Virus record (IMG/VR): IMGVR_UViG_3300032046_006286
Coordinates: 1 to 31,348 of that record
Origin: a virus
Direction: 5' to 3' (one strand)
DNA length: 31,348 nucleotides
Shown piece by piece: positions 1 to 24,291 of this stretch (its first letter is position 1; every line of letters starts with the position of its first letter). Under the pieces are notes generated by a model. The model searched no databases and was not told where the DNA came from. It was given only the letters and a program-made list of their open reading frames with translations. A program made the translations under genes and the position numbers.

Positions 1-2406
1 ATGGATGCGACGAGCAAAGAGGGACTGACGGCCTTGACCGCGCCGGTGGCGGCGCTGGTGGCGGCGCGCGCGCCGGAGATTGACATCGGGCGGGCGCTGA
101 TTGACCTGCGCGGGCGGGTAGATGGGCGATGGAAATCGGCGCTGCGGCTGATCTGGCCATGCATCGCTAATCCCGGGGCGCGGGCGCACGAGGCGATGGA
201 TGCCGCGCGGGCGGCGGCGAAGGCGGGACTCGCGGCGCGGGATCTCACCACAGAGCGCACAGAGAGCACAGAGACGAATCCGTTGAGAACCGTGCAGTCG
301 CTGACGGAGCAGGAGCAGCGGCGGTACGGCCTGGTGGCGCCCTTGTTGGGAATGCGGGGCAGCGACCGGCGCGAGGCGGTCAACCAGATCGCCGCGGCGG
401 AACAGGTGAACGCCGGCACGGTATATGTATGGCTCAAGCGGGCGCGCGATGGCGCCGCGGGACTCAAGCGCAAGCGCCGGACCGATGCCGGGAAATCGGC
501 GCTGCCCGAAGGGGCGCGGCAGATGCTGCTGGCCCGCCGCCTGAATCCCCGGACGCGTGACGAGAACCTCGCGCTCTCGCTGCGTCTGGTCCGCGACCAA
601 TTCCCCGGCGCGAGCGAGGCGGCGTTACGGCACGTGGCGCGCTCGATCCCGGCGGCGGCCCGGCTCAGCCGCGAGGAATACGCCAAGCGGTTTTTGCCGA
701 CCGGCGAGTGGGTCGCGCCATATCCCAATCACTCCTGGAGCTTCGATTACACGATCGGCGATGTGAAATGCTGGGATGGCGACCCGCGGGTCAAGCCATA
801 CCGCCCGTGGGTGACGGCGATGATAGATGAGGCGACCGGGGCGCCGACAGCAATCCTCTATACCCGCGAGCACCCGGATCGGTATGCGCTGCGGTCGGTT
901 CTGCTGATGGGGATACTGCCGAAGCGGATCGCGGCCTCCGACGAGACCGCGCCCCAGAGAGAATGGCCGCAGCATGGCCTGCCCGAGCGCCTGCACGGGG
1001 ACAACGGGAAAATACAGCGGTCACTGTGGCTGGCGGATGTCTGCCGCCAGATCGGGATCGGCCTCGATGTGCAGATGGATCTCGCATTCTCCAATGCCTA
1101 TGAATCCTGGCAAAACGGGCACATCGAGTCGTTCTGGTGCCATTTGCACCAGATGTTCGAGGCGCGGTTCGGCGAGATCGGGGCTTACTGCGGGCGCGAC
1201 CCGGAGGCGCGCAAACGGAACGACGGCTACATCGGCGATTCCGGGCGCCTCAGCGATTGGAAGAAGCTGCCCACCTGCGCGGACATGAATCGCGGGGCGC
1301 AAGAGTGGATCTGCGCGGAGCTCCTGACGCGGATGCATTCGCGTTTGGGGATGTCGCGCAATGACGCTTGGCGGGCGACCGCCGAGGGGCACGTGAAGGT
1401 GCCGGACGAGCCGTGGCTGCGGCAGATACTGATGTTCAAGGAACGGAGGTTGGTGCGGCGCGCGCGGGTGGCGCTCAACGGATTCGCGTATTGGAGCGAG
1501 CGGCTCATTGACTACGAGGGCATCGAGGTCCCGGTGTGGTGGGATGCGGCGCATCTGGAGACCGTGCTTGTGCTGAATCCCGAGGGCAAGGAAATCTGTT
1601 GGGCCGAGGTCGAGCGTCCGCACGAATTGGGCGATCAGGAGAGCCTGGCCGATTATCGGCGCAAGCGGGCGGCGGCGACGCAACGGCGGCGGGAGTTCGC
1701 GGCGATGGCGGATGACGCCGGGGAGTTCCTGCCGGCGGCAAAGGTCGAGGATGTGATCGCGCGGCTGCGGGCGGGCGCGGTGGTCACGGGCAGGAGTGCC
1801 CGTGCTCCAGTCGCGGAGCCGGCGCCGCCGGCGGCGATCACCGTGTGGCCGCGGCCAATGGTCGAGCGCGCCGCGGATGAGGGCTTGGAATACCTGGCGC
1901 GGCGAGCGCGGGAGTTAACCACAGAGGGCACGGAGAGCACAGAGACGGATCCATTGCTGCTGCTCGCGCGCGGCGCCGCGGCACAGGCAGGAGTGCCTGT
2001 GCTCCATTCGGGCCTCACTTTCCACGGCATTGACATCGGGGCCGGCCAACATCAATCGCCCCCAGCGAGCGACCCAAGCGCGGACCAGGCCGGCCCCGAT
2101 GATTCATGCGGGGATTCACAGGCAGGAGTGCCCCTCGACGCCGCTCGGGGCGGGCCTGTGGTCCAGGATTCGCACGGGGATTCACAGGCGGGAGTGCCCT
2201 TCGACGCCGCTCAGGGCGGGCCTGTGGTCCAGGATGACCCGGGTCTGCCTGAATCTTTCGGGCGCTGGGTGCGGGATCGCTACGGGAAATATGGGGATGC
2301 GCCGCGGCAGCCGGCGCAGATGCGCAAGGCCGCGCGGGAGCAACTTGAAGCGAACTACGCGTCCGCGGGCGCGCGACCGGCGGCGACAGGGAGAAAAAGA
2401 CCATGA
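1..2406 (+). CDS. MuA-like DDE transposase
   Basis: This 801-aa protein is the likely strand-transfer recombinase that integrates the phage and drives replicative transposition. Residues about 115-215 hold helix-turn-helix-like segments (TVYVWLKRAR, then the region around RLNPRTRDENLA). The RNase-H-like core follows, with candidate catalytic residues D249 (WSFDY), D334 (HGDNGK) and E376 (GHIESFW). Residues about 750-801 form a basic tail where MuA carries its MuB/ClpX-interacting domain III. Residues about 590-746 are low-complexity and largely encoded by dispersed repeats, as are residues 83-92. MuA is 663 aa, so this protein is longer mainly because of these inserts. The ATG is the first base of the window, so an upstream start cannot be excluded. 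The downstream gene overlaps by ATGA. The motifs and the MuB-like neighbour make the family assignment firm. Confidence 0.93.
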   Translation: MDATSKEGLTALTAPVAALVAARAPEIDIGRALIDLRGRVDGRWKSALRLIWPCIANPGARAHEAMDAARAAAKAGLAARDLTTERTESTETNPLRTVQSLTEQEQRRYGLVAPLLGMRGSDRREAVNQIAAAEQVNAGTVYVWLKRARDGAAGLKRKRRTDAGKSALPEGARQMLLARRLNPRTRDENLALSLRLVRDQFPGASEAALRHVARSIPAAARLSREEYAKRFLPTGEWVAPYPNHSWSFDYTIGDVKCWDGDPRVKPYRPWVTAMIDEATGAPTAILYTREHPDRYALRSVLLMGILPKRIAASDETAPQREWPQHGLPERLHGDNGKIQRSLWLADVCRQIGIGLDVQMDLAFSNAYESWQNGHIESFWCHLHQMFEARFGEIGAYCGRDPEARKRNDGYIGDSGRLSDWKKLPTCADMNRGAQEWICAELLTRMHSRLGMSRNDAWRATAEGHVKVPDEPWLRQILMFKERRLVRRARVALNGFAYWSERLIDYEGIEVPVWWDAAHLETVLVLNPEGKEICWAEVERPHELGDQESLADYRRKRAAATQRRREFAAMADDAGEFLPAAKVEDVIARLRAGAVVTGRSARAPVAEPAPPAAITVWPRPMVERAADEGLEYLARRARELTTEGTESTETDPLLLLARGAAAQAGVPVLHSGLTFHGIDIGAGQHQSPPASDPSADQAGPDDSCGDSQAGVPLDAARGGPVVQDSHGDSQAGVPFDAAQGGPVVQDDPGLPESFGRWVRDRYGKYGDAPRQPAQMRKAAREQLEANYASAGARPAATGRKRP
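247..275 (+). repeat. ACCACAGAG-type half repeat inside transposase gene
   Basis: The stretch ACCACAGAGCGCACAGAGAG and its continuation is one arm of the inverted-repeat family seen complete at 20931-21000 and 26530-26598. Here it is read in frame as LTTERTESTET (residues about 82-92 of the transposase). A second copy at 1916-1945 encodes LTTEGTESTET. Confidence 0.85.
1785..1810 (-). repeat. GGAG-type hairpin repeat in transposase gene
   Basis: CACGGGC and GCCCGTG arms flank a short loop and are followed by CTCCA, the reverse complement of the TGGAG head. The copy is read in frame within the transposase (residues about 595-604, TGRSARAPV). Confidence 0.85.
1916..1945 (+). repeat. ACCACAGAG-type half repeat, second copy in transposase gene
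   Basis: It is a near-identical copy of the element at 247-275 and is translated in the same reading frame of the repeat, giving LTTEGTESTETDPL. Only the left arm of the full inverted repeat is present. Confidence 0.85.
1982..2006 (-). repeat. GGAG-type hairpin repeat in transposase gene
   Basis: CACAGGC and GCCTGTG arms followed by GCTCCA form a reverse-orientation copy. It is translated as QAGVPVLHS within the linker of the transposase. The same bases recur at 5758-5783, outside any gene. Confidence 0.87.
2109..2236 (+). repeat. 66-bp tandem duplication containing an expanded hairpin
   Basis: Two copies of about 62 bp begin at 2109 and 2175, so the period is 66 bp or exactly 22 codons. 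Each encodes DSQAGVP(L/F)DAA(R/Q)GGPVVQD. Each copy starts with the CACAGGCAGGAGTGCC repeat and closes with GCCTGTGGTCC, so the GGAG-type palindrome here carries an extra internal segment of about 20 bp. The copies differ at only a few positions, which suggests recent duplication. Confidence 0.9.
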
Positions 2407-2651: not shown

Positions 2652-3380
2652 GTGAAGACGATCTCGTGGGACGGCATCGAGATTTACCCCATCAAGCCCT
2701 GGCAGGAATACCAGCGGCTACTGGCGGCGCTGGCGAGCCTGCGCAATGTGCGCGAGCGCCTGGCGCTGTTCATTGGCGAGCAGGGCGTCGGCAAGAGCCT
2801 GGGCGCGACCTACTTTGCCGAGCAGAACCGCCCGGCGGTATATATCGAGGCGCTGCCGGCGGCGGTTAATACCGAGTCGCGGCTGCTGCGGCAGATCGCC
2901 GGCGGGTGCGGCATGAATGACGCGGCGCCGAGCCGCTACGATCTACTCGTGCGCATCGAGGAGCATCTGCGGACCAGCGGCCAGGCGCTCATCATTGACA
3001 ACGCCGAGCGGCTGCGGGCGTACCGCTACCTCGACCTCGTGCGGCACATCCACGACCACGCCGGGGCGCCGATCGCCTTCTGCGGCACGCCGAGCATCGA
3101 GGCGGCGTTTAGCGAGCACCGCGAGCTCGCGGGGCGGGTGGTGCTGCACCGGCAACTGCGGTTGGCGACGGCGGCCGAGATCCGCCCGGCGCTTGAGGAG
3201 TTCAGCGACGAGTTGGCGCAACGCGTCTGGGAGATCACGCGCGGGCGGATGCGCGAGGTCATGGGGCTGCGGTTCAACCTGCTGGCGCTGGCGGCCGAGA
3301 ATAAGATCAAGCCGGGGACTATCGAACCGGAAATCGCGGACAAACTCAGGCAGCAGTTCATGCTGCGGGGGCGAGGGTGA
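2652..3380 (+). CDS. MuB-like AAA+ ATPase (transposition target selection)
   Basis: This 242-aa protein is the likely partner of the transposase. In Mu, MuB binds target DNA as an ATP-dependent filament and activates MuA. It has a Walker A motif G42-EQGVGKS-49 and a Walker B motif ending at D116 (ALIIDNAE), followed by FCGTPSIE, which fits a sensor-1 strand. The GTG start at 2652 is chosen because AGGAGG lies at 2640-2645. Mu B is 312 aa with an N-terminal helix-turn-helix domain. That domain is missing here, and the ATPase begins almost at once. A similar small HTH protein occurs 10 kb downstream at 12715. The family call rests on motifs and on adjacency to the transposase. Confidence 0.88.
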   Translation: MKTISWDGIEIYPIKPWQEYQRLLAALASLRNVRERLALFIGEQGVGKSLGATYFAEQNRPAVYIEALPAAVNTESRLLRQIAGGCGMNDAAPSRYDLLVRIEEHLRTSGQALIIDNAERLRAYRYLDLVRHIHDHAGAPIAFCGTPSIEAAFSEHRELAGRVVLHRQLRLATAAEIRPALEEFSDELAQRVWEITRGRMREVMGLRFNLLALAAENKIKPGTIEPEIADKLRQQFMLRGRG

Positions 3381-5757: not shown

Positions 5758-5783
5758 CACAGGCAGGAGTGCCTGTGCTCCAT
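5758..5783 (-). repeat. GGAG-type hairpin repeat after gene stop
   Basis: CACAGGC and GCCTGTG arms, then GCTCCAT, starting 4 bases after the stop of the upstream gene. It is identical in core to the in-gene copy at 1982-2006. The rest of the 86-base gap to 5841 shows nothing else but the Shine-Dalgarno-like AGAGG before the next ATG. Confidence 0.87.
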
Positions 5784-6349: not shown

Positions 6350-6378
6350 TGGAGCACGGGCTTAAGCCCGTGCCTCCA
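6350..6378 (+). repeat. Extended GGAG palindrome with CTTAAG centre
   Basis: TGGAG, CACGGGCTTAAGCCCGTG and CCTCCA make an almost perfect 29-base palindrome with one extra C. The same architecture appears four times in the small terminase gene (8830-8970). It ends 19 bases before the next ATG. Confidence 0.87.
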
Positions 6379-8139: not shown

Positions 8140-8164
8140 CACGGGCAGGAGTGCCCGTGCTCCA
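8140..8164 (-). repeat. GGAG-type hairpin repeat in small terminase leader
   Basis: CACGGGC and GCCCGTG arms followed by GCTCCA. Compared with the copy at 5758, both arms have changed together (A-T to G-C), so pairing is kept. Confidence 0.87.
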
Positions 8165-8201: not shown

Positions 8202-8987
8202 ATGCCGAACCTCGTCACGACCACGATTAGCCTTCCCCCGATCCGCCTCAGCTCGCGCTGCGCGATCTGCGGGATTTGGGAGACCAAGCCCGCCCTCTTC
8301 GACGAGATAAACGAGAAACTCCTCGGCGGGGTTGGACAAACGAAAATCGTCGCCTGGTTGCGCGCGAAGCACAAGTTCCGCACCAATCAGAACTCGCTGA
8401 GCCGCCACCTCAACCGCCACCTCATGCCCTACTTCGAGGACGCGCTGCTGATCGAGCGCACCGCGCTGGCAATCGCGCAGGCGACGGGGAGCCAAAGCAC
8501 GATGTCCCTCGCGGGAGTGATCCTGCGCATCCTGGCATCGAAGATCCACGACGCCCTGGGCGGCCTCGATCTCAAACGGATCAAAAACCTCGATCCGCTG
8601 GACCTGATGAAGGCCGCGACCGCTCTCGCCTCGACCATCGCCTATGCCGACCGCGCCGCCTCCGATTCCGCGCTCAAGGCCGAGGAGTTGGAGCTGCGCA
8701 AGCTGCGCCTAGCGAAGAGCAAAGAGGAGCTGGCGGCGCTGGCCGTGGACTGGCTGCGCAAGCAGCTCGCCGGGCGGCCCGATCTCGTCGAGCACCTGCG
8801 CGCGCAACTGGCGCTGCCGGAACCCGAAATGGAGCACAGGCTTAAGCCTGTGCCTCCAGGGGAGGCTGAACGCAGGCTGAAGCCTGCGGCTCCAGGGAGA
8901 GAGGCGGGCGGGCTCAAGCCCGCCGCTCCAGGGAACGCGGGACACAGGGTTAAGCCTGTGGCTCCACGGGACACGGATGAATCCTGA
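8202..8987 (+). CDS. Putative terminase small subunit (Mu gp27-like position)
   Basis: This 261-aa protein uses the ATG at 8202, with AGAGG at 8188-8192. The in-frame ATG at 8121 is rejected because it lies inside the hairpin element and reads through a repeat. C20/C23 (SRCAICG) precede an HTH-like region (QTKIVAWLRAKHKF, SLSRHLNRHLMPY) that could bind packaging sites. A long helical region with a charged coil follows (residues about 140-200). The last 50 residues are four in-frame copies of a hairpin repeat giving a repeated LKP(V/A)(P/A)PG peptide. It overlaps the large terminase start by 11 bases. The call rests on position and architecture rather than a sure family match. Confidence 0.65.
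   Translation: MPNLVTTTISLPPIRLSSRCAICGIWETKPALFDEINEKLLGGVGQTKIVAWLRAKHKFRTNQNSLSRHLNRHLMPYFEDALLIERTALAIAQATGSQSTMSLAGVILRILASKIHDALGGLDLKRIKNLDPLDLMKAATALASTIAYADRAASDSALKAEELELRKLRLAKSKEELAALAVDWLRKQLAGRPDLVEHLRAQLALPEPEMEHRLKPVPPGEAERRLKPAAPGREAGGLKPAAPGNAGHRVKPVAPRDTDES
8830..8970 (+). repeat. Four GGAG palindromes at exact 36-bp spacing, in frame
   Basis: The palindrome centres CTTAAG, CTGAAG, CTCAAG and GTTAAG lie at 8841, 8877, 8913 and 8949, exactly 36 bp (12 codons) apart. The stems differ (ACAGGC, GCAGGC, GCGGGC and ACAGGG versions) with mostly compensating changes. The array encodes the whole C-terminal tail of the small terminase. Confidence 0.93.
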
Positions 8988-10683
8988 CATCGGTAAGCTG
9001 CTCGATGATCTCACTGCGCCCGGGATCGAGGCGCCGCTCGATTTTTTCGCGGCCCACATCCACCCGCGCCGCAAGCCGTGGTCGCTGGATCGCCACGAAT
9101 ACCTGCGGCAGATCGTCGAGGACCCCGCGCAGCACATCGTCATCGAGAAAGCCGCGCAGCTCGGCGCGAGCACGGTCATGCTCGGGCGCATGATCCTCGC
9201 CTGCCTTCACGCGCGCAAAGTCGGGTATTTCTTGGAGTCCCGGCCCTACATGACGACCTTCGTGCAGGATCGCTTCGACCCCTTGATCGCCGCCGATCGC
9301 GCGCTCGGCCGCGCGGTGGTCGAGGGCCAGCATGAGACGGAGGACATCGCCGGTCGCCGCAAGCGGGCCGATAACGTCCGCCTCAAACACATCGGCCCCG
9401 GCAGCGCGTACTTCTGCGTGACCCAGAAACGCTCGGACATCAAGTCGGTGGACCTCGACCTGGTGATCCTCGACGAGGTCGCCGAGCTCGATCCCGAGCT
9501 CGTGGATTGGGTGGATGATCGCCTGCTGCACAGCGATTACAAGCGGCGCTACGAGTTGTCGCAACCCGATGTGCCCAACTGGGGGATTGACGAGCGCTTC
9601 AGGGAATCCGATCAGAAGTATTGGGCGCTACGCTGCCCGCGCTGCCGGGTGCGCACTATCGTCGAGCTTGAGTTCCCCGCGTGCCTGGCATGGATGGAGG
9701 GCGCGCGACGCATCCCCGCCGGCGACTTCGTGCTCGATGACGGTTGCCGCGGCCTGAGCCCCGATCATTTCCGCATCGTCTGCCCGCGCTGCTTCGCGCG
9801 CCTCGATCCGTCAGCCGGCGAATGGGTCGCCCAAAATCCCGGCGCGCGGATCTCCGGGTATCATCTATCGCAGCTCTATGGCCCCGCAATTGACGCCCCC
9901 GCCATCGCCCGCAAGTGGATCGGCGCCCAGAAGCGCCCGTCGAAGATGGCCAATTTCTACATCTCCTATCTCGGCCTGCCCTATGCCGGCGACCGCCAGC
10001 CGCTGACCGAGGAATTGCTGACCAGCAAGTGCGGCGACTGGCGCATCTCGCCCACCGGCCAGGGCGAGAATCTGCCGACCGGCGTGGCGTTCGCGGGGAT
10101 TGACGTGGGCGACATCTGCCACCTGGTCGTCGCGCGGCGCGGCGATGATGGGAAGTTCCGCGTGTTGTGGGCCGAGAAGACCGGCTCGTGGGCCCTGCTG
10201 GAGAAGCGCCTGCGGGATTATGACGTGCGCATGGCGGTCGTAGATGCCATGCCCTATAAGACTAGCGCCAAGGCATTAGTACGCAGTTTCAAGCGCGCGG
10301 CGATCTCCTATATGACCGGGCAGCAGACGCGTTATGCCATCGAGGACGGCGAGACGGATCCGGTGCACGTCATCAACTGCGACCGCACCGAGGCGAGCGA
10401 CGCCCTGGTGGATGCAATCACCGCCGGCGACCTGCTGCTGCCGCGCGCGAGTGAGCCGGTAGTCCCTGAGATCAAGGCGCATCTGAAAAACCTCATCAAG
10501 GACAAGCGCGCGGACGGCACATTCGCGTACAAGCGCGGCCTCGACGACCATTATGCGCAGGCGCTGATTCGGATGTTGCTGGCGGCCGGCGGCAGCCGCG
10601 CGCTGGGCATCGGTGTCTGCCACCATCTGGGCGGCGCGGATAAATGGATCATCGGCAAAAGCTCGGCCCCGAGGAGATGGTAA
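8977..10683 (+). CDS. Terminase large subunit (GpA/Mu gp28-like)
   Basis: This 568-aa protein is the packaging motor and nuclease that cuts and pumps DNA into the procapsid. The ATPase domain has a deviant Walker A E57-KAAQLGAST-66, like the GpA family, and a Walker B VILDE with D166/E167. A zinc ribbon follows with CPRC at 220-223 and CPRC at 269-272. The nuclease domain starts at GIDVGD (D376), with further acidic candidates in VVDAM and near the C-terminal GLDDHYAQALI. It overlaps the small terminase by 11 bases, and its TAA overlaps the portal ATG (TAATG). The length fits the family. Confidence 0.9.
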   Translation: MNPDIGKLLDDLTAPGIEAPLDFFAAHIHPRRKPWSLDRHEYLRQIVEDPAQHIVIEKAAQLGASTVMLGRMILACLHARKVGYFLESRPYMTTFVQDRFDPLIAADRALGRAVVEGQHETEDIAGRRKRADNVRLKHIGPGSAYFCVTQKRSDIKSVDLDLVILDEVAELDPELVDWVDDRLLHSDYKRRYELSQPDVPNWGIDERFRESDQKYWALRCPRCRVRTIVELEFPACLAWMEGARRIPAGDFVLDDGCRGLSPDHFRIVCPRCFARLDPSAGEWVAQNPGARISGYHLSQLYGPAIDAPAIARKWIGAQKRPSKMANFYISYLGLPYAGDRQPLTEELLTSKCGDWRISPTGQGENLPTGVAFAGIDVGDICHLVVARRGDDGKFRVLWAEKTGSWALLEKRLRDYDVRMAVVDAMPYKTSAKALVRSFKRAAISYMTGQQTRYAIEDGETDPVHVINCDRTEASDALVDAITAGDLLLPRASEPVVPEIKAHLKNLIKDKRADGTFAYKRGLDDHYAQALIRMLLAAGGSRALGIGVCHHLGGADKWIIGKSSAPRRW

Positions 10684-12605
10684 TGCGCATCGGCCCGCTG
10701 GATTTCAGCATCCATAGATTCGCGGAAAAGAAACCTCGGCCGCCCCTGGGCGAGACCGGCACCTCCGGCCTGAATATTTGGCGTGGGCTCGTCGCCGAGG
10801 AATATAATCCCGACCTGCGCGGCCCCGCGGCCTACGAGACCTATGACAAAATGCTGCGCGGGGACGGCCAGGTGCAGGCGGTCGAGCTGGCGATCTGGTT
10901 GCCGATCGGCGCCGCGGCGTGGAGCGTCGAGCCGGGCGACGACAGCGCCGCCTCGCGCGAAGCGGCCGATCTGATTTTGAGCAATCTGTTCGGCGGCATG
11001 ACCATTTCCTTCGCCGAGGTCCTGCGCCACGCGCTGCTCGGCGCGCTGACCGGGGTCGCCCTGCTTGAGCATGTTTGGGAGATCCGCGACGGCCTCGCCG
11101 CCTGGCGCAAGCTCGCGCCGCGCGCACCGAAAAGCATCCGCCAATGGGACATGGACATCGGCGGCGGCGTACAGGGAGTGGTGCAATGGGCGCGCGATGA
11201 GGGCGGCGGGTTTCGGGATGTGCGGATCCCAATCGAGAAGCTGATTCGGTTAACCTGGCGCGGCGATTATGGCAACCCCGAGGGGCGCGCGTTGCTGCGG
11301 CCCGCATACAAGCATTGGTTCACCAAGGACTGGCTCTACAAGTTCGCCAACATCGCGGTCGAGCGCGGAGCCGTCGGCGTGCCCGTCGGCCATCTGCCCG
11401 AGGGCTACAGCAAAACCGACCAGGATGATTTCCTGGATCTGCTCAAGGATTGGAAAGCTTCTGAATCCTCGGCTTTCGCGCTTCCCCCCGGCTATACCAT
11501 CGAGTTGTTGCAGATGCAGGTCCGCAGCCAGGGGTTCATGGCGCTGATCGAGCACCACGACGTTATGATCGCGCGCTCGGTGCTCGCGCAGTTTATCAAC
11601 CTGGGGACTACCGCCAGCGGATCGCGGGCGCTCTCGGAGGGGCAGACTGGGTTTTTCATTCTCGCCCTCAATACCGTCGCCGATTGGTTTGCGGAGCACA
11701 TCAACCGCTACGGCATCCCGCGCTGGTGCGCCTATAACTATCCGGGCCTCAAGGCGCTGCCGACGCTCGGCCATTCGAGCATCGGGACGGTGCTTGATCC
11801 GGGCGGCATCGCCAACGGTTTGGCGCAGCTCTGCGCGGGGCGGCTGCTGACCCCGGATGATGATCTCGAAAACGTGGTGCGCGGCTGGTTCGGGTTGCCC
11901 CCCCTGCCCGAGGAGCATACCCGAGCAACCGAGCAGCCAATAGAACGGCCGGTCGTCGCACATGGAGCACAGCCGCTCTCGGCTGTGGTCCGCGGCTCCA
12001 CCCGCCGGTACGATCCCGAACCGCACTTGGCCGCCGGGCGGCAGATGGCCGCAGACGAGCAGCGCTTCGAGGCGGCAATGGCGGAGGTTGTGACCGACCA
12101 GGAGCAACGGCTGCTCGCCAAGCTGGAGCCAATTATCGCCGATTTCAAGGCGGCGCCGGATGAGGAGAAAGGACGGCAGATTTCGCGGATGCAGGCGGTG
12201 AATGTCCCGCTCGTCGCCAAATATGAAAATCTCCTGCGCGGTTGGCTATGGAGCCTATTCAGCGTCGCCCGCGAGCGCGCGGCCGCCGAGTTCGGCGCCA
12301 AGCCAGGGGCGGTCACGAGCGCGATGCGCCAATGGATCGCCGCCAAAGCCCAGGTGTTGGCGCAGGACCACAGCGAGAAGCTGCGGGCCCAGGTTCTCCA
12401 TGAATTGCTCGATGTCATCCGCCAGGACCTTCCCACCGGCGACATCCTCAAGGTCCTGGGGCAGGCGGCGCGCGGGCGGGCGCGAGTGGATTTGACGGAC
12501 GGTTTGCGCGAGGCCGGCGAGCAACTCATCGAGGTCATCAACAACGCCCTGATCGGCATTCAGACGCGCCCTGGAGCACAGGCGCTCCCGCCTGTGGATG
12601 TATGA
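10683..12605 (+). CDS. Portal protein (DUF935 / Mu gp29-like) with C-terminal extension
   Basis: This 640-aa protein forms the dodecameric DNA channel of the head. The ATG at 10683 is chosen because GAGGAG (10671-10676) sits 6 bases upstream and TAATG couples it to the terminase. Upstream in-frame starts lie inside the terminase gene. DUF935-type features include GDGQVQAVELAIWLPIGAAAW, RPAYKHWFTKDWLYKFAN and QFINLGTTASGSRALSEGQ. After residue about 425 comes a repeat-encoded segment (AHGAQPLSAVV). An all-helical region of some 200 residues follows (e.g. AMRQWIAAKAQVLAQDHSEK), resembling the N-terminal part of Mu-F/SPP1-gp7 proteins. A second repeat supplies the last residues (GAQALPPVDV) and stop. 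Confidence 0.88.
   Translation: MRIGPLDFSIHRFAEKKPRPPLGETGTSGLNIWRGLVAEEYNPDLRGPAAYETYDKMLRGDGQVQAVELAIWLPIGAAAWSVEPGDDSAASREAADLILSNLFGGMTISFAEVLRHALLGALTGVALLEHVWEIRDGLAAWRKLAPRAPKSIRQWDMDIGGGVQGVVQWARDEGGGFRDVRIPIEKLIRLTWRGDYGNPEGRALLRPAYKHWFTKDWLYKFANIAVERGAVGVPVGHLPEGYSKTDQDDFLDLLKDWKASESSAFALPPGYTIELLQMQVRSQGFMALIEHHDVMIARSVLAQFINLGTTASGSRALSEGQTGFFILALNTVADWFAEHINRYGIPRWCAYNYPGLKALPTLGHSSIGTVLDPGGIANGLAQLCAGRLLTPDDDLENVVRGWFGLPPLPEEHTRATEQPIERPVVAHGAQPLSAVVRGSTRRYDPEPHLAAGRQMAADEQRFEAAMAEVVTDQEQRLLAKLEPIIADFKAAPDEEKGRQISRMQAVNVPLVAKYENLLRGWLWSLFSVARERAAAEFGAKPGAVTSAMRQWIAAKAQVLAQDHSEKLRAQVLHELLDVIRQDLPTGDILKVLGQAARGRARVDLTDGLREAGEQLIEVINNALIGIQTRPGAQALPPVDV
11963..12000 (+). repeat. 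GGAG-type hairpin repeat inside portal gene
   Basis: TGGAG, then CACAGCC and GGCTGTG arms around GCTCTC, closed by GCGGCTCCA. It is translated in frame at the boundary between the portal core and its helical C-terminal extension. The stem is the CAGCC version, also found at 18481. Confidence 0.85.
12572..12599 (+). repeat. GGAG-type hairpin repeat forming the portal C-terminus
   Basis: TGGAG with CACAGGC and GCCTGTG arms, read in frame as PGAQALPPVD just before the stop codon. The 109 bases between this gene and the next start hold no other recognisable element. Confidence 0.87.
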
Positions 12606-12714
12606 TGCTTTTTTTGCGCCAGGATGCCCCAGAATCGCTTGAGGGGTACGGAAGTACCAGTCGCGGCCTGAACGCCAGAATTGACCGCTATTGACCGGGG
12701 TCAGGAGCGAAACC

Positions 12715-13104
12715 GTGACGGCGTTGGAAGCCCTGAAACGCGAATCGCGCATGAGTTACCGGCAAATCGCCGATGAGTTGGGCTTGAGTAAGACCCATGT
12801 GCTGGGCCTCATTCGCGGGATTTATCCCTATCCGCAGGATGGCAATGTGCGGCGCATCCGCCGCCTGCTGATCGAGCGCGCGCGCCTCGAACGGTCATCC
12901 GATCCCGACTTCCTCGCCCAGATCCGCCAAGTCGCCGTGCCGTTCCTCCTGGAGCGCATCGTCCTGGAGCACAGGCACTCCTGTCTGTGTCTCCCGATGC
13001 CTGCCCATCCGCGTAAATCCGCGGCCAAGCTTCCCCTCCCACCCCTCCGGTCCCATCTGTGTGAATCTGTGCAATCTGTGGATGGCGTTCCCTCCCATGC
13101 CTGA
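12715..13104 (+). CDS. Small HTH protein, MuB-N-terminal-like, with repeat-derived tail
   Basis: About 129 aa from GTG at 12715, with AGGAG at 12703-12707 (7-base spacing). The upstream TTG at 12691 lacks such a site. Residues about 14-55 (SYRQIADELGLSKTHVLGLI, then RGIYPYPQDGNVRRIRRLL) match the pattern of an HTH followed by G-x-Y and a helix, as in the N-terminal domain of MuB. The final 45 residues are encoded by three kinds of dispersed repeat, so the functional protein may end near residue 83. Its place between portal and the Mu-F-like gene is unusual for a DNA-binding protein. Confidence 0.6.
   Translation: MTALEALKRESRMSYRQIADELGLSKTHVLGLIRGIYPYPQDGNVRRIRRLLIERARLERSSDPDFLAQIRQVAVPFLLERIVLEHRHSCLCLPMPAHPRKSAAKLPLPPLRSHLCESVQSVDGVPSHA
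12965..12989 (+). repeat. GGAG-type hairpin repeat inside HTH gene
   Basis: TGGAG with CACAGGC and a slightly degenerate GTCTGTG arm. It is translated as LEHRHSCLCLP. Confidence 0.82.
13009..13084 (+). repeat. AATCTGTG-type repeat with CCGCG palindrome
   Basis: CCGCGTAAATCCGCGG at 13009-13024 is followed by ATCTGTGTGAATCTGTGCAA and CTGTGGATGG (13054-13084). The second part recurs at 28669-28700, again just before an ATG. Here it lies across the HTH gene end and the start of the Mu-F-like gene. Confidence 0.8.
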
Positions 13105-13645
13105 AACCATTACCGAGCACCTACGCATGACCGCCACCGTCACCGTCCGCGCGCTCGACGCGCAGGCGCGCGAGGAATCGGCCGATCTGGCGCTGTGGCC
13201 CCTGGCGCAGCGCATTGCGATCCTCGATGAGCGCGTCTGCGAGCTCTGCGAGTACCTCGATGGGATGATCATGCGCCGCGACAGCCCGGATTTCGCGCAG
13301 TACGGTAAACCCGTACACATCAACGACCGCTGCCGCATCGCCTACATCGGAGCCGATGAAGTGGAGATTGACGAGCACGGCAGGCCGGTGCCCATGACCC
13401 CCGATTTCGTCGCCCCGCCGCTGGAATTGATCCGCAAGCACGGCCACTTCATCGCCGATCCCGATAGGTATGCGCCCCTGCGCATCCCCGCGCAGCCGGA
13501 GGGCCGCGATTTCGTCTTCAAGCGCGTCCGGGATCCGCGGTCGGGCGATCTGGTGTCCGTGATCGACTGGCGGACGCGGATGTACGAGATCCCGGGCCTG
13601 TTCCCCGAGACGATTCACATTCCCGCGCTGGTTCCCGTCGAATGA
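13097..13645 (+). CDS. Mu-F / SPP1-gp7-like minor head protein, C-terminal domain only
   Basis: This 182-aa protein carries the signature of the phage minor head (Mu F, SPP1 gp7) C-terminal domain. ILDERVCELCEYLDG holds C48 and C51, and YGKPVHINDRCRI holds H74 and C79, a likely metal site. Full-length relatives are usually over 300 aa and have a long helical N-terminal part, which is absent here and may have ended up on the portal protein. The ATG at 13097 is used. In-frame GTG at 13061 lies within a repeat. The start overlaps the HTH gene by 8 bases. The protein should help link portal, head and ejected DNA. Confidence 0.75.
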   Translation: MPETITEHLRMTATVTVRALDAQAREESADLALWPLAQRIAILDERVCELCEYLDGMIMRRDSPDFAQYGKPVHINDRCRIAYIGADEVEIDEHGRPVPMTPDFVAPPLELIRKHGHFIADPDRYAPLRIPAQPEGRDFVFKRVRDPRSGDLVSVIDWRTRMYEIPGLFPETIHIPALVPVE

Positions 13646-13829: not shown

Positions 13830-13870
13830 GCATTTACTGGAGCGCCCCGATTGCTCGGGGCGAATAGAAG

Positions 13871-15262
13871 ATGACCGAGCGCGAAATCGAACGCAGAGCC
13901 GGCTACGCCTTCAGCGACCTCAACCTCGCCGAGCCAGTCGCCGATCAGCCCTCCCAGCGCTGGCTGCAACTGGTGCCCATCGGCTCGTGGGAGCATTCGG
14001 ATTACGGCCAGCTCGACATCACGCCCGAGCGCATCGCGCGCATGGCCGCAAATTATGCGGCCGGCCTCCCCGGCATTGATCTCCCGGTTGACATCGAGCA
14101 CAACTGGGGCGAGGCGGTCGGCTGGATCCAAAACGTCGAGGCCCGCGCGGATGGCCTGTGGGGCCTGGTGGATTTCAATATCAAGGGACAGCAACTCCTC
14201 GCCGATCGCGCCTACCGCTACATCTCCCCCGAATGGTTCCCCGACTGGAAGGACTCGCGCGATGGGAAGCACTACGAGGACGTGGTGACGAGCATCGCGC
14301 TCACCAACCGCCCGTGGTTCAAGGATTTGCCGGCCATAGTCAACTCCGAATCCGAGCGCGGCCGCACCTACCTGGTGCCCGCCTATCGTTTCCGGTGGGA
14401 GAAGAAGGGTACGGAAATCTGGTATCGCGTGCGCGACCCCGGCGATTTCGATCCCGATACTTTCAGGTCCCTGGATATGCCCGGAGTCAAGGGCATTCGC
14501 ATGGTCATGGGCCGCCTCAAGCCCGAGAATGCCCCCAAGGGCCACGACCCGAAAAGCCTGGTCATCCAGGCCCTGCGGTTCGATCTCGACGAATGGACAA
14601 TGGACAAAGCGAAGGCTTGGGTCGCCAAGCACAAGGATAGGCTGAAAGCATCCGCCCCCGCGGATGAAATTAGTCGCGCCATCCGCGCGGCGGATAGAGG
14701 AGACAATCCCATGCCCGAAGTCCCGAATCCCGATGTCAAGCCCGACCCGGCGCCAAAGCCTGACCCCGGCGCCAGTTCGATCACCATGACCGAGTTCAAT
14801 GCGGTGAAGGCGGAAGCGGCCGCAAGCAAGGCCGCCGCGGAAGCCGCGAACAAGGCGGCCGCCGACGCCAATGCCCGCCTCGATCGCGCGCAGCTGCATG
14901 AGCGCATCGCCGGCCTGCGCTTCGGCGAGAACAAGCAGCGCGTGCTCGCGCCGGCGATGGTCGAGCAGCTCACGGATACCGCCCTGCGGTTCGCCGCCGG
15001 CGATGAGCGCGAGAAGTTCCTGACCGGCATCGCGGGCCTGTCATTCGTCGAATTGGGCGAGCGCGGCGATGGCGGCCACGAGCCGACCGGCGACGCCATC
15101 CAGCGGTTTAGCGAGGCGGTCGCCGCGAAGATCAAGGCCGATCCGAAGCTCCAGTACGCCGATGCCATGCGCCTCGTCGCCGCCGAGAATCCGCAGCTCG
15201 ACGCCGAGCGCGCTCGCGCGATCCGCGGCCAGCAGCCGGTGGTCCGCAGCGCCGCGAAGTAA
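13871..15262 (+). CDS. Mu I-like prohead protease with inserted domain and scaffold
   Basis: This 463-aa protein is the capsid maturation protease and scaffold precursor. The N-terminal part (residues 30-160) fits the Mu I family: VDIEHNWGEAVGWI with H77, and YRYISPEW with S119, the likely catalytic His and Ser. Residues about 164-257 form an extra domain (IWYRVRDPGDFDPDTFRSL, LKPENAPKG, LDEWTMDKAKAWVAKH) not expected in Mu I. Residues about 281-463 are the Ala/Lys-rich, coiled-coil scaffold with its own internal start. The gene follows the promoter and hairpin at 13649-13828. Its stop is followed within 5 bases by the 6 x 29-bp repeat array. Confidence 0.85.
   Translation: MTEREIERRAGYAFSDLNLAEPVADQPSQRWLQLVPIGSWEHSDYGQLDITPERIARMAANYAAGLPGIDLPVDIEHNWGEAVGWIQNVEARADGLWGLVDFNIKGQQLLADRAYRYISPEWFPDWKDSRDGKHYEDVVTSIALTNRPWFKDLPAIVNSESERGRTYLVPAYRFRWEKKGTEIWYRVRDPGDFDPDTFRSLDMPGVKGIRMVMGRLKPENAPKGHDPKSLVIQALRFDLDEWTMDKAKAWVAKHKDRLKASAPADEISRAIRAADRGDNPMPEVPNPDVKPDPAPKPDPGASSITMTEFNAVKAEAAASKAAAEAANKAAADANARLDRAQLHERIAGLRFGENKQRVLAPAMVEQLTDTALRFAAGDEREKFLTGIAGLSFVELGERGDGGHEPTGDAIQRFSEAVAAKIKADPKLQYADAMRLVAAENPQLDAERARAIRGQQPVVRSAAK
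14711..15262 (+). CDS. Nested scaffold protein (Mu Z-like internal start)
   Basis: An in-frame ATG at codon 281 of the protease gene is preceded by AGAGGAGA at 14696-14703, a strong ribosome-binding site. It would yield a 183-aa scaffold (MPEVPNPDVKPDPAPKPDP, then a coiled coil). This mirrors Mu, where gene Z starts inside I and makes the scaffold separately. Translation from this start is predicted from the ribosome-binding site and the Mu parallel. Confidence 0.75.
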   Translation: MPEVPNPDVKPDPAPKPDPGASSITMTEFNAVKAEAAASKAAAEAANKAAADANARLDRAQLHERIAGLRFGENKQRVLAPAMVEQLTDTALRFAAGDEREKFLTGIAGLSFVELGERGDGGHEPTGDAIQRFSEAVAAKIKADPKLQYADAMRLVAAENPQLDAERARAIRGQQPVVRSAAK

Positions 15263-15267
15263 TGTAA

Positions 15268-15441
15268 TGGAGCACGGGCGCTCCCGCCCGTGAATCTGGA
15301 GCGCGGGCGCTCCCGCCCATGAATGTGGAGCGTGGGCACTCCTGCCCGCGAATCTGGAGCGCGGGCACTCATGCCCGCAAATGTGGAGCGCGGGCACTCC
15401 TGCCCGTGAATGTGGAGCGTGGGCACTCCTGCCCGCGACTC
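15268..15441 (+). repeat. Six tandem 29-bp GGAG hairpin repeats
   Basis: Units start at 15268, 15297, 15326, 15355, 15384 and 15413, each 29 bp with the form TGGAGCRYGGGC, a CTCC-type loop, GCCCGYG and AATS. The last unit decays after its stem. Stem bases vary between units while mostly keeping pairing. The array fills the junction between scaffold stop and the next ribosome-binding site (AGAGAGAGG, 15448-15455). Confidence 0.95.
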
Positions 15442-17432: not shown

Positions 17433-17490
17433 TGGAGCGCGGGCACTTCTGCCCGCGAATGTGGAGCACGGGCGCTCCCGCCCGCGAATC
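17433..17490 (+). repeat. Two tandem 29-bp GGAG hairpin repeats before the capsid gene
   Basis: Units at 17433-17461 and 17462-17490 share the 29-bp period and sequence of the 15268 array. The first begins at the base right after the cement-protein stop codon. Confidence 0.94.
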
Positions 17491-18480: not shown

Positions 18481-18505
18481 TGGAGCACAGCCGCTCTCGG
18501 CTGTG
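18481..18505 (+). repeat. GGAG-type hairpin repeat after capsid stop
   Basis: TGGAG with CACAGCC and GGCTGTG arms around a GCTCTC loop, 5 bases after the capsid stop codon. It has the same stem version as 11963. Confidence 0.87.
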
Positions 18506-20049: not shown

Positions 20050-20050
20050 T

Positions 20051-20074
20051 GTAGGGGCGCGGCACGCCGCGCCC
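20051..20074 (+). repeat. GTAG-headed palindrome before tail tube gene
   Basis: GTAGG is followed by a perfect 9-bp stem GGGCGCGGC / GCCGCGCCC with an AC loop. The GTAG head plus palindrome is the classic REP layout. It lies between the tail terminator stop and the AAGGAGAT ribosome-binding site of the next gene. Confidence 0.85.
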
Positions 20075-21615: not shown

Positions 21616-24291
21616 ATGCCCGAAGAAACCCTCGATATAGTAGTCCGCGCGAAAGACCAAGCGTCCGCCGCCCTGCAAAATGTCCAGCAGGGCATCCAGG
21701 GCGTCAAGCAGGCGGCGGTCAGCGCCACCGATGCCGTCCGCGCGCAGCAAATCAAAACCCTCCAGGGCGCCCTCGCCGATCCCACGGGTTTGAGCCGGAA
21801 AACGCGGCAGATGGCCGAGGAAACGCTCCACCACCTCGGCGCTCTCGTGCCCAAGGCACTCCCCGCGCCTAAAATCCCGGCGATCAAAATGCCGGTGTTG
21901 CCGCCACTCAAGCCGCCCGAGTTCAAGCCTCCCACCATCAGGGCGCCGCGCATCCAGCCGCTCGATATGCGGCCCGTCACCCAGCCCTTGGCAAACTTCC
22001 AGCCTCACGTCGCCCGCATTAATCTCCTCGGCGCCGGCATCCTCGCCCTGCAAGGCCCGCTGGGCGTGGTGGCGGGCTTGTTTCAGGGCTTGGGATCGGT
22101 CGCCGGGAATGTCCTCCGTTCCATCATCTCGGGCGTCATGAGGCTCGCCCAGGCGATTCTGTCGCTGGCCCTCGACGCCCTGCATAAGCTGACCCTCGCC
22201 TTTGGCGCGGCCGCCGCGGCCGCCGCCGCCCTCGTCGCGGTCGTCCTTAAGCTCGGCTTCTCTTACATTGGCTTCGCCAATGAGCAAAAAAATGCCCTGA
22301 CGGTCATGCTCGGTTCCCGCCGCGCCGCCGAGGGTCTTTATAACTGGATGGAAAAGCTAGCGGGATCCCTGCGCATTGACCCCAGGCCGCTGATTGAGGC
22401 CGGTCGGAAAATGGTCGCCTTCGGCATCAATGTCAAACAAACCCTGCCCTGGGCCCTCGATCTCGCCGCCGCCATGAAGGAGCCGATCGCAGGAGTCGCG
22501 GAGATGCTCGGGCGGGTCGAGATGGAGCAGGCGCTGATGCGCAGCCTCGCCGGCATGGGCATCGGCAAAAAGCGCCTGATGGAGGTCGGCGTCCAATTCA
22601 AGGGCGAGCAGATCGTCAACCGCGCGCAACTCATGGCGGGCCTCAAAGCCATCGTCACCCGCGATTTCCCCAACATGGCCGCGCAGGGACGGAGCGAATT
22701 GGCGCGGATTTGGCAGCAGATCAAAACCAACATCACCGAGGCCGCCGCCGAGATTTCCGCCGGCCCTTATCGCGTCCTTCAGGGCGCCGGCGATAAACTC
22801 CTCACCAGTTGGGAAAACCTGCGGAAGTCCGACGCCTGGACTCGCATCAAAGACCGCGCCGGCGGCGCGCTCGCCTGGATCGCGCAACAGATCACCGCCC
22901 TGATCGGCGGCGCGCCGCAGCTCCTCTCCTGGTTCGCGCGGATATTCGATGCCGCGCCCATCGAGGAGTTTTTGGGGATGATCAAGGGCGTCGCCGATTT
23001 CCTGCGCGGCGAGCTGCCCAAGGCCGCCCAGCGCGCGGGGGCGATCATCAGCGGCCACATGCGCGCCTCGGGCATTGATACGAGCAATGTTTGGCAGGCC
23101 GTGGGGACCTTCATCGTCAAGGCCATCGCCGGGGCCGAAGCCGGGCTCTTCGCATTCGCCGAGGAATGGCCCAAGGTCTTCGCGTGGATCAAACGCATCG
23201 CCAGTGATTTCGTGGCCAGCCTGCGCGCAACATTTGATACCCTGCTCATCTTCTTCGATGACCTCGGCAGCTCCATCGCCGAGATCCATGCCCTCATTCT
23301 CCGCATCGCCGGCGCCATCAACATCACGAGCACGGCCGCGATCGCTCTTTATAAAATTAGGAACCCGCTACAATTCGGTGGGGTTCGCGTCTTCAAGGAA
23401 GTCACCGCTGATATTAGGGAGGCGATCGCCACCAATGCGCGCTGGACAAAAGAGGCCGGCGCGCTCTGGCGCGGCGGGTACAAAGAGCGGCGGCGAATGG
23501 AGCAGCGCCCGCCCGCCGAGAAGGCTTATGAGGAATATGTCGCCCGCCCGCAATACGACGCCCGCCGCGCCGAGCAGCTCTATCAGGCGATGATCCGCGA
23601 ATCCAAGGCCAAACGGAAGGACGACGAGGGCATCGCTCCCTGGACTGCCGTCACCACCACCGTTGCCGCCGCGGTCGCGGCATTCAAGGCCACCAAGTTC
23701 GTCATGCCGCGCGTCCAACTGCCCCCGCCCATCCAGCCCGAGCGGATCGAGGATGCCGCACGCGGCGGCACCCACACCGGCGTCGTCGAGGGTATGGCCT
23801 CCATCGCCGACGATTTTGTGACCAAGGTTTGGGGCGCGAGCGCCGAAATGCTCAAACGGGCCGGCGTCAGCCCCATGTGGCTCGAATCTATCGGCGTCCA
23901 TACTGGAGCACGGGCACTCCTGCCCGCGCCCGCCGCCCTCCCTGGAGCACAGCCCGCAACTGGAGCACAGGCACTCATGCCTGTGGGCGCCAAGAAGGCC
24001 GAGGCCCTCCCTGGAGCACAGGCACTCCTGCCTGTGGGTGGGGTCCCTCCCGCCGAGCCCCCATCTTTCGCCGAGCGCATCTGGCGCGGCATGAGTACCA
24101 TGTTCCCCGCCGCCCCGCGCCTCGCCCCCGCCGCCGCCGGCGCCGGACCACCGATCCACGTCAACCTCGGCGGCCTCACCGTCAATTCCCAGGCCGATCT
24201 CGCGGGCGCCCTCAAATCTCCCGCCGCCAAGCGCGACTTCGAGCGCGCCCTCGAAAGTTTCCTCGGCGACTGGCTGCGGAGATATCGCTAG
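21616..24291 (+). CDS. Tail tape measure protein
   Basis: This 891-aa protein sets tail length. It starts with LDIVVRAKDQASAALQNVQQ, which is typical of tape measures. A hydrophobic, glycine/alanine-rich stretch follows at residues about 139-222 (including AFGAAAAAAAALVAVVLKLG) and then long helical regions. By the usual 0.15 nm per residue the tail would be roughly 130 nm, an estimate only. Residues about 763-807 (GARALLPAPAALPGAQPATG, GAQALMPVG, GAQALLPVG) are encoded by hairpin repeats. Its TAG overlaps the next GTG start. Confidence 0.88.
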   Translation: MPEETLDIVVRAKDQASAALQNVQQGIQGVKQAAVSATDAVRAQQIKTLQGALADPTGLSRKTRQMAEETLHHLGALVPKALPAPKIPAIKMPVLPPLKPPEFKPPTIRAPRIQPLDMRPVTQPLANFQPHVARINLLGAGILALQGPLGVVAGLFQGLGSVAGNVLRSIISGVMRLAQAILSLALDALHKLTLAFGAAAAAAAALVAVVLKLGFSYIGFANEQKNALTVMLGSRRAAEGLYNWMEKLAGSLRIDPRPLIEAGRKMVAFGINVKQTLPWALDLAAAMKEPIAGVAEMLGRVEMEQALMRSLAGMGIGKKRLMEVGVQFKGEQIVNRAQLMAGLKAIVTRDFPNMAAQGRSELARIWQQIKTNITEAAAEISAGPYRVLQGAGDKLLTSWENLRKSDAWTRIKDRAGGALAWIAQQITALIGGAPQLLSWFARIFDAAPIEEFLGMIKGVADFLRGELPKAAQRAGAIISGHMRASGIDTSNVWQAVGTFIVKAIAGAEAGLFAFAEEWPKVFAWIKRIASDFVASLRATFDTLLIFFDDLGSSIAEIHALILRIAGAINITSTAAIALYKIRNPLQFGGVRVFKEVTADIREAIATNARWTKEAGALWRGGYKERRRMEQRPPAEKAYEEYVARPQYDARRAEQLYQAMIRESKAKRKDDEGIAPWTAVTTTVAAAVAAFKATKFVMPRVQLPPPIQPERIEDAARGGTHTGVVEGMASIADDFVTKVWGASAEMLKRAGVSPMWLESIGVHTGARALLPAPAALPGAQPATGAQALMPVGAKKAEALPGAQALLPVGGVPPAEPPSFAERIWRGMSTMFPAAPRLAPAAAGAGPPIHVNLGGLTVNSQADLAGALKSPAAKRDFERALESFLGDWLRRYR
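23904..24037 (+). repeat. GGAG-type hairpin repeats inside the tape measure gene
   Basis: Full copies at 23904-23928, 23961-23987 and 24012-24037 and a truncated one at 23943-23952 share TGGAGCAC heads. All are in the same reading frame, giving repeated GA(R/Q)AL(L/M)PxG peptides. Confidence 0.9.

Follow-up and report, generated by a model that had tools for sequence, protein, structure and literature searches.

Why should the last codons of a small terminase gene be written as a row of palindromes? The question is raised by a Mu-like phage whose source record, a whole viral record of 31,348 bases, was analysed at full length and is called the window here. Four 18-bp palindromes (8835–8960) lie in frame at the 3' end of its terS gene. 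A sequence-only reading had offered a packaging-related site, an RNA structure coupling the two terminase genes or a flexible tail as explanations. We conclude that the array is very probably no dedicated terminase device.

The terS array and two relatives of the phage

Beyond the genes collected in Table 1, cement and tail-tube proteins are encoded in the window, and other putative head and tail genes were named by position. "Small terminase" is a fair name for TerS, since one of three aligned TerS members, a relative, matches PF11985 Phage_Mu_Gp27 (E 1.6e-4) and since the gene lies directly before terL. Aligned with its relatives, the protein has a conserved body up to about position 8820, followed by a unique tail. 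The terL gene begins within terS, with an overlap of 11 nt. The stretch in which the array ends (8950–8976) holds only a weak Shine–Dalgarno match before the terL start.

The exact 36-bp spacing that had been claimed is indeed present: the four copies (8835–8863, 8871–8899, 8907–8935 and 8943–8971) follow each other with start-to-start distances of 36, 36 and 36 bp. The frame stays open and reads EHRLKPVPPGEAERRLKPAAPGREAGGLKPAAPGNAGHRVKPVAPRDTDES, which bears out the claim of encoded LKP-rich repeats. The stems differ in sequence and mostly still pair, again as claimed, three of them perfectly (CACAGGCT/AGCCTGTG, CGCAGGCT/AGCCTGCG and GGCGGGCT/AGCCCGCC) and one with a single mismatch (CACAGGGT/AGCCTGTG). 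What had been overlooked is that CTCCA follows every palindrome; read on the opposite strand, it forms a TGGAG foot preceding the stem. Tandem Repeats Finder did not report the array, presumably because the copies are too diverged.

Folding of 8825–8990 as RNA gave z = −5.9, and folding of the other strand as DNA gave z = −6.2; no shuffle was equally stable in either case. At minimum energy the RNA folds with unit 1 paired to unit 4, and these outer units enclose the inner hairpins. Additionally, when both strands were scanned for 8-bp stems carrying a TGGA(G) foot, 26 places were found in the window, compared with 0–3 in the controls (eight first-order Markov sequences). From the fold z-scores and these counts we can conclude that the array is not a product of chance. 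It is both a hairpin array and an in-frame coding repeat, and this claim of the sequence-only reading stands.

Table 1. Positions of genes and hairpin units in the window.
Feature	Position	Strand	Remark
Mu-type transposase	1–2406		
CTCC-loop REP-like unit	1785..1809	-	in frame, transposase gene
CTCC-loop REP-like unit	1982..2006	-	in frame, transposase gene
MuB-like ATPase	2652–3380		
CTCC-loop REP-like unit	5758..5782	-	4 nt past stop codon
Solitary double-foot unit, terS-array subtype	6350..6378	.	intergenic gap
CTCC-loop REP-like unit	8140..8164	-	gap before terS
Small terminase (TerS)	8202–8987	+	ORF, ATG at 8202; directly before TerL
REP-like unit 1	8830..8858	.	double foot (TGGAG...CTCCA), TTAA loop
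REP-like unit 2	8871..8894	-	tag TGGAG on - strand
REP-like unit 3	8907..8930	-	
REP-like unit 4	8943..8966	-	one stem mismatch
Large terminase (TerL), GpA-type	8977–10683	+	PF05876, phrog_675
Mu portal	10644–12605		
REP-like unit	11963..11987	+	variable linker of portal gene
REP-like unit	12572..12596	+	encodes final portal residues, past end of alignment with relatives
REP-like unit	12965..12989	+	past conserved part of gene at 12691
Mu F-like	13061–13645		weak match
GGAG-tagged hairpin, divergent stem	13838..13862	+	intergenic
Mu I-like protease	13871–15262		
Six REP-like units, 29-bp period	15268..15437	+	intergenic
Two REP-like units, 29 bp apart	17433..17486	+	intergenic, directly after stop codon
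REP-like unit	18481..18505	+	after putative major head protein gene
Hairpin, canonical GTAG tag	20050..20074	+	directly after stop codon
Three REP-like units	23904..24036	+	in frame near tape-measure gene end; stretch gapped in G005

Two syntenic relatives are available for comparison: G005 (33.8 kb; TerS 71% and TerL 76% identical) and G006 (15.2 kb; 62% and 75%). An alignment-based search turned up no TerS relatives beyond these two. Against the phage collection, TerS had no match and TerL only distant ones (<27% identity among the matches listed), and no TerL match was obtained in a direct search of viral_contigs or, at a cut-off of E 1e-40, in 246 genomes. A blastn comparison of the arrays with plasmids and phages gave nothing of use.

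The TerS proteins of both relatives show long identical blocks up to QLALP and then continue into shorter, unrelated tails with Pro, Lys and Arg. At their terminase boundary we found neither the array nor the tail peptide. The alignment proposed in the sequence-only reading as a check on uniqueness thereby places the tail in this phage only, among the three compared, and the pattern that had been named as counter-evidence, the same peptide without palindromes, is not seen in relatives that have neither. A three-sequence AlphaFold model of TerS, which is weak (mean pLDDT 54), has pLDDT values of 34–43 and no secondary structure from residue 204 onward. The suggested flexible tail is supported by this prediction of an unstructured segment and by its uniqueness among the three phages.

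The overlap of the terS stop with the terL start is kept in both relatives (by our reading 8 nt there, and 11 nt here). Because it is kept without hairpins, any coupling of the two genes would not require them. An RNA structure that tunes or couples the translation of terS and terL would fit the strong RNA fold (z −5.9), the end of the last stem 16 nt before the terL start, and the Shine–Dalgarno match of terL, which at −4.0 kcal/mol is weaker than in the two relatives (−4.8 and −7.9 kcal/mol), though the gap to G005 is small. We nevertheless regard this reading as improbable, given that the overlap persists in relatives lacking the array and that the elements are dispersed. An incidental effect of the array on terL expression is possible.

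Finally, the record is metagenome-derived and repeats can be breakpoints, so the repeats could be the joins of an assembly chimera. This is scarcely credible: the gene order from the MuB gene to the tail genes is that of G005, and reading frames cross the repeats.

A hairpin family spread over the window

The terS units are members of a larger family: the window contains about 25 hairpins that are built alike, with an 8-bp stem, a 2–4-nt loop and an unpaired TGGAG tag. A scan with the explicit tag T-GGAG/GTAG/GTGG gave 30 rows for these about 25 hairpins, as self-symmetric copies are listed repeatedly and one or two rows look like chance; the controls gave 0–3. Two subtypes with a common foot can be distinguished. 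The TTAA-loop subtype comprises the terS array and a fifth copy that stands alone at 6354–6373, while the sister CTCC-loop subtype (20 aligned copies) is scattered across the window. Neither the fifth copy nor the sister subtype figured in the sequence-only reading. The tag is GGAG in all four terS units and in the aligned copies.

In the CTCC subtype both sides have changed in 6 of the 8 stem pairs and 96.7% of the cells are paired, a result that none of 500 shuffles reached. The TTAA subtype covaries as well, with less power from its five units (97.5% of cells paired; 1 of 500 shuffles). Rfam covariance models gave no relevant match in the window; the sole match, at 25625–25715, was below threshold.

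Eight of the 15 independent sites are intergenic, although intergenic DNA makes up 9.9% of the window. Six of the 15 touch gene 3' ends, where random placement gives a mean of 1.0 (P 0.00045). Five genes carry hairpins in frame, namely those for the transposase, TerS, the portal (one copy in a linker and one at the very last codons) and the tape measure, and the gene at 12691. In the four genes whose copies could be set against aligned relatives (TerS, the portal, the 12691 gene and the tape measure), the hairpins occupy regions where the alignment varies, has gaps or has already ended. The periods of the coding arrays are all divisible by three (36 bp in terS, 66 bp in the transposase repeat, 57 and 51 bp in the tape measure), in contrast to the 29-bp period of the intergenic arrays, which is what tolerance of in-frame insertion predicts.

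This distribution bears on two further readings. If selection had acted on a functional Pro/Lys-rich repeat tail, the palindromes would be a by-product of codon choice. The frame is kept across all four units and the tails of the relatives are also Pro-rich with basic residues, but the same hairpins occur in intergenic DNA, where they encode no peptide at all, the tail sequences are not conserved, and the stems covary outside genes too. We give this reading very little credence. As little credence attaches to a pac-like DNA site that would serve the packaging machinery from the end of terS. The position inside terS beside terL would suit such a site, and strong palindromes are plausible as protein sites. 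A pac or cos site should, however, mark the terminase boundary of the relatives and be specific to it, whereas the array is absent from this boundary in both G005 and G006 and about 14 further sites carry the same elements. Packaging in Mu-type phages proceeds from an end of the integrated genome, and a mid-genome location would therefore be unexpected. A packaging site is, in our judgement, highly improbable.

The two terminase-specific proposals of the sequence-only reading, the packaging site and the coupling RNA, were thus rejected because the array is absent in relatives and its elements occupy about 15 places in the window, most of them far from the terminase genes.

G005 has hairpin families of its own, tagged GTAG with the stems GGGCGGTTC/GAACCGCCC or GGGCGATC/GATCGCCC, or GTGG with CACAGCCG/CGGCTGTG. 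By comparison of homologous gene coordinates they lie in gaps, several of which also contain hairpins in the window, namely those that follow the protease and the head protein and the one that precedes the tail tube. Different hairpin sequences in the same gaps argue for independent arrivals at tolerant places. The G005 tags (L028/L029, 13951–32853) are all on the + strand, except for one likely chance match and one symmetric copy.

Other repeats were noted in passing. The C-terminus of the transposase contains a 66-bp in-frame tandem repeat (2109–2235; DSQAGVP.DAA.GGPVVQD), and the G006 transposase has a gap at the homologous end. A second dispersed kind occurs at 244–276, 1915–1953, about 20950 and about 26560; within the transposase it reads TTERTESTE or TTEGTESTE, at the other places it yields HGDHRGHRE-like or HGKHGEHG-like peptides, and it is probably another host repeat family.

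Bacterial counterparts and a likely origin

REPs have a fully paired basal stem of 7–20 bp with a loop of 2–5 nt, ranges that include the 8-bp stems and 2–4-nt loops found here. They occur in many copies, mostly intergenic or near gene 3' ends, as do the about 25 copies at 15 sites in the window. The REP tag, GTAG or GTGG 0–2 nt 5' of the stem, is missing from the four terS units, and GTAG is seen only at 20050–20074. The terS array works like a REP cluster, and the GGAG at the tag position is a tag variant. We do not file it as a GTAG-superfamily REP, since the four units lack the GT[AG]G tag.

Short hairpin repeats of the REP-like kind are widespread in bacterial chromosomes, and many copies closely similar to the phage hairpins exist there. 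G115, a genome sampled from the phylum to which a Gemmataceae genome belongs (by inference Planctomycetota), gave 37 matches, mostly of the type AGTAGCACAGGCATTCCTGCCTGTG and with GTAG or GTGG tags; tag aside, this type differs from the window at 24012–24036 in one loop base. The CACAGCCG stem, present in the window at 11968 and 18486, is also found in G369 and G398, two genomes of another phylum. A further genome, G052, has 95 matches to the G005 hairpin family, many of them counted on both strands. No Y1_Tnp or cognate RAYT/TnpA_REP was detected in the window, G005 or G006. G115 has 14 Y1_Tnp matches, and on its contig 17 (L045 395–1002) two inverted GTAG hairpins bracket a Y1/RAYT-like ORF with HVH and tyrosine motifs. 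In G398 a RAYT-like ORF contains, towards its 5' end, a GTAG hairpin with the CACAGCCG stem (L046 1002–1025).

A host genome with the GGAG form was not found among the genomes scanned, and we claim none of the matched genomes as host. The GGAG-form pattern, with up to 2 mismatches, returned only chance-like matches or GTAG-tagged relatives from 246 genomes that share a phylum with G002 and 148 that share one with G001. The exact TTAA-subtype pattern had 4 single matches in genome_contigs, about as many as estimated for chance, and pattern scans of viral_contigs gave no or only chance-like matches.

Taken together, we think it likely that the array is a REP-like cluster with a GGAG tag which reached the phage from a host, could be accommodated in frame and took the place of a divergent tail. 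The elements would have come from the repeat pool of the bacterial host, moved as single-stranded DNA, probably by the REP-associated Y1 transposase (RAYT/TnpA_REP) of the host, and reached a prophage or replicating phage DNA in the way that has been suggested for chromosomes. Local multiplication would have produced the 36-bp head-to-tail tandem. The array would have landed in the C-terminal tail of TerS, which is divergent and probably disordered, and there have replaced or buried an older tail; it could be tolerated there because 36 bp are 12 codons, the frame is free of stops and the tail is divergent. The insertion was probably near-neutral for the protein, as the tail is predicted to be unstructured. 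Elements would have stayed wherever they were harmless. Stem pairing may be kept up by template switching, gene conversion or selection; template switching is reported to be able to generate RNA hairpins and to preserve them (PMC8794818).

We infer the host origin of the elements and their mobilisation by a RAYT, and comparison with the divergent relatives suggests insertion as such. The REP-like origin is supported by the window-wide family, the covariation, the absence in relatives, the near-identical bacterial hairpins and the bracketing of a RAYT-like ORF. It is weakened by the GGAG instead of GT[AG]G tag, by the lack of a GGAG-form host among the genomes scanned and of Y1_Tnp in the phages, and by the head-to-tail order of the units, an arrangement under-represented in the majority of known REP families (PMC3733652). 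Intragenic REP clusters that encode tens of residues are documented (PMC3733652).

The strand of the tags may hold further information. Of the asymmetric tags, those left of 9 kb (5 independent sites: 1785, 1982, 5758, 8140 and the terS array) are without exception on the - strand, and those right of 11.9 kb (9 sites) without exception on the + strand, with the flip between 8966 and 11963. A perfect strand sort of 14 sites would arise by chance about 1 time in 1000, counted post hoc. Transcription does not explain the flip, because all genes used point the same way (+). From left to right the fourfold-site GC skew of the window runs +0.13, −0.14, −0.27 and −0.48, and the third-position skew per gene changes sign at about 6–9 kb. 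The fourfold skew goes from +0.03 to −0.42 in G005 and from +0.16 to −0.12 in G006, while Mu is without such a trend. IS200/IS605 relatives target the lagging-strand template (PMC6006769), so the polarity of replication may underlie both the tag strand and the skew. One may speculate that REPs enter phage genomes as single-stranded DNA during phage replication and that their orientation records the direction of the fork, an idea we hold to be rather unlikely. If true, this Mu-like lineage would be replicated from both ends, RAYT-type elements would use its lagging-strand DNA, and phages would carry REPs between hosts. Should the flip hold in more phages, it would be a readable trace of REP insertion.

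The phage is an example of a genome colonised by REP-like elements so densely that several structural and packaging proteins have had their ends recast in frame. Term searches of the REP literature found no discussion of phage-borne REPs, which makes phages as REP carriers worth testing.

Comparison with known systems

The order of small terminase, large terminase, portal, Mu F and protease genes is the same in Mu and in this phage, and the gp27 family of Mu is matched by one relative of its TerS. In Mu, however, the terminase genes do not overlap (gp27 ends at 12891, gp28 starts at 12899), whereas here they do.

Like the array, Rickettsia palindromic elements lie in frame in protein genes (PMC10969869; PMC3733652). 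As described in these papers they are about 150 bp long (RPE-4 and RPE-6 are short and CGTC-tagged), in contrast to the GGAG-tagged units of 24–29 bp with their 36-bp period. BIMEs and REPINs are likewise clusters of REP hairpins, and units 1 and 4 of terS can pair, but this pairing follows from the self-palindromy of the units. A BIME or REPIN has an inverted REP pair as its unit; here unit 1 has both feet, and the tags of units 2–4 all stand in tandem on the - strand and form no inverted doublet. The hairpin–ORF–hairpin layout on contig 17 of G115 resembles that of a REPtron (PMC6006769, PMC8266576).

The array also closely resembles the REPs of the GTAG superfamily (PMC3733652, PMC6006769, PMC8266576). 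Shared with them are the unpaired tetranucleotide before an 8-bp stem, the 2–4-nt loop, compensatory stem variants, multiple copies in gaps and at gene 3' ends, clusters, double-foot units and in-frame copies. These REPs have a GT[AG]G tag, whereas the phage units have GGAG (GTAG in the one copy at 20050), form head-to-tail arrays and are phage-borne, and the phage itself lacks a RAYT. Judged by the papers searched, what is new is the GGAG tag, the occurrence in a phage and how many of its genes are affected.
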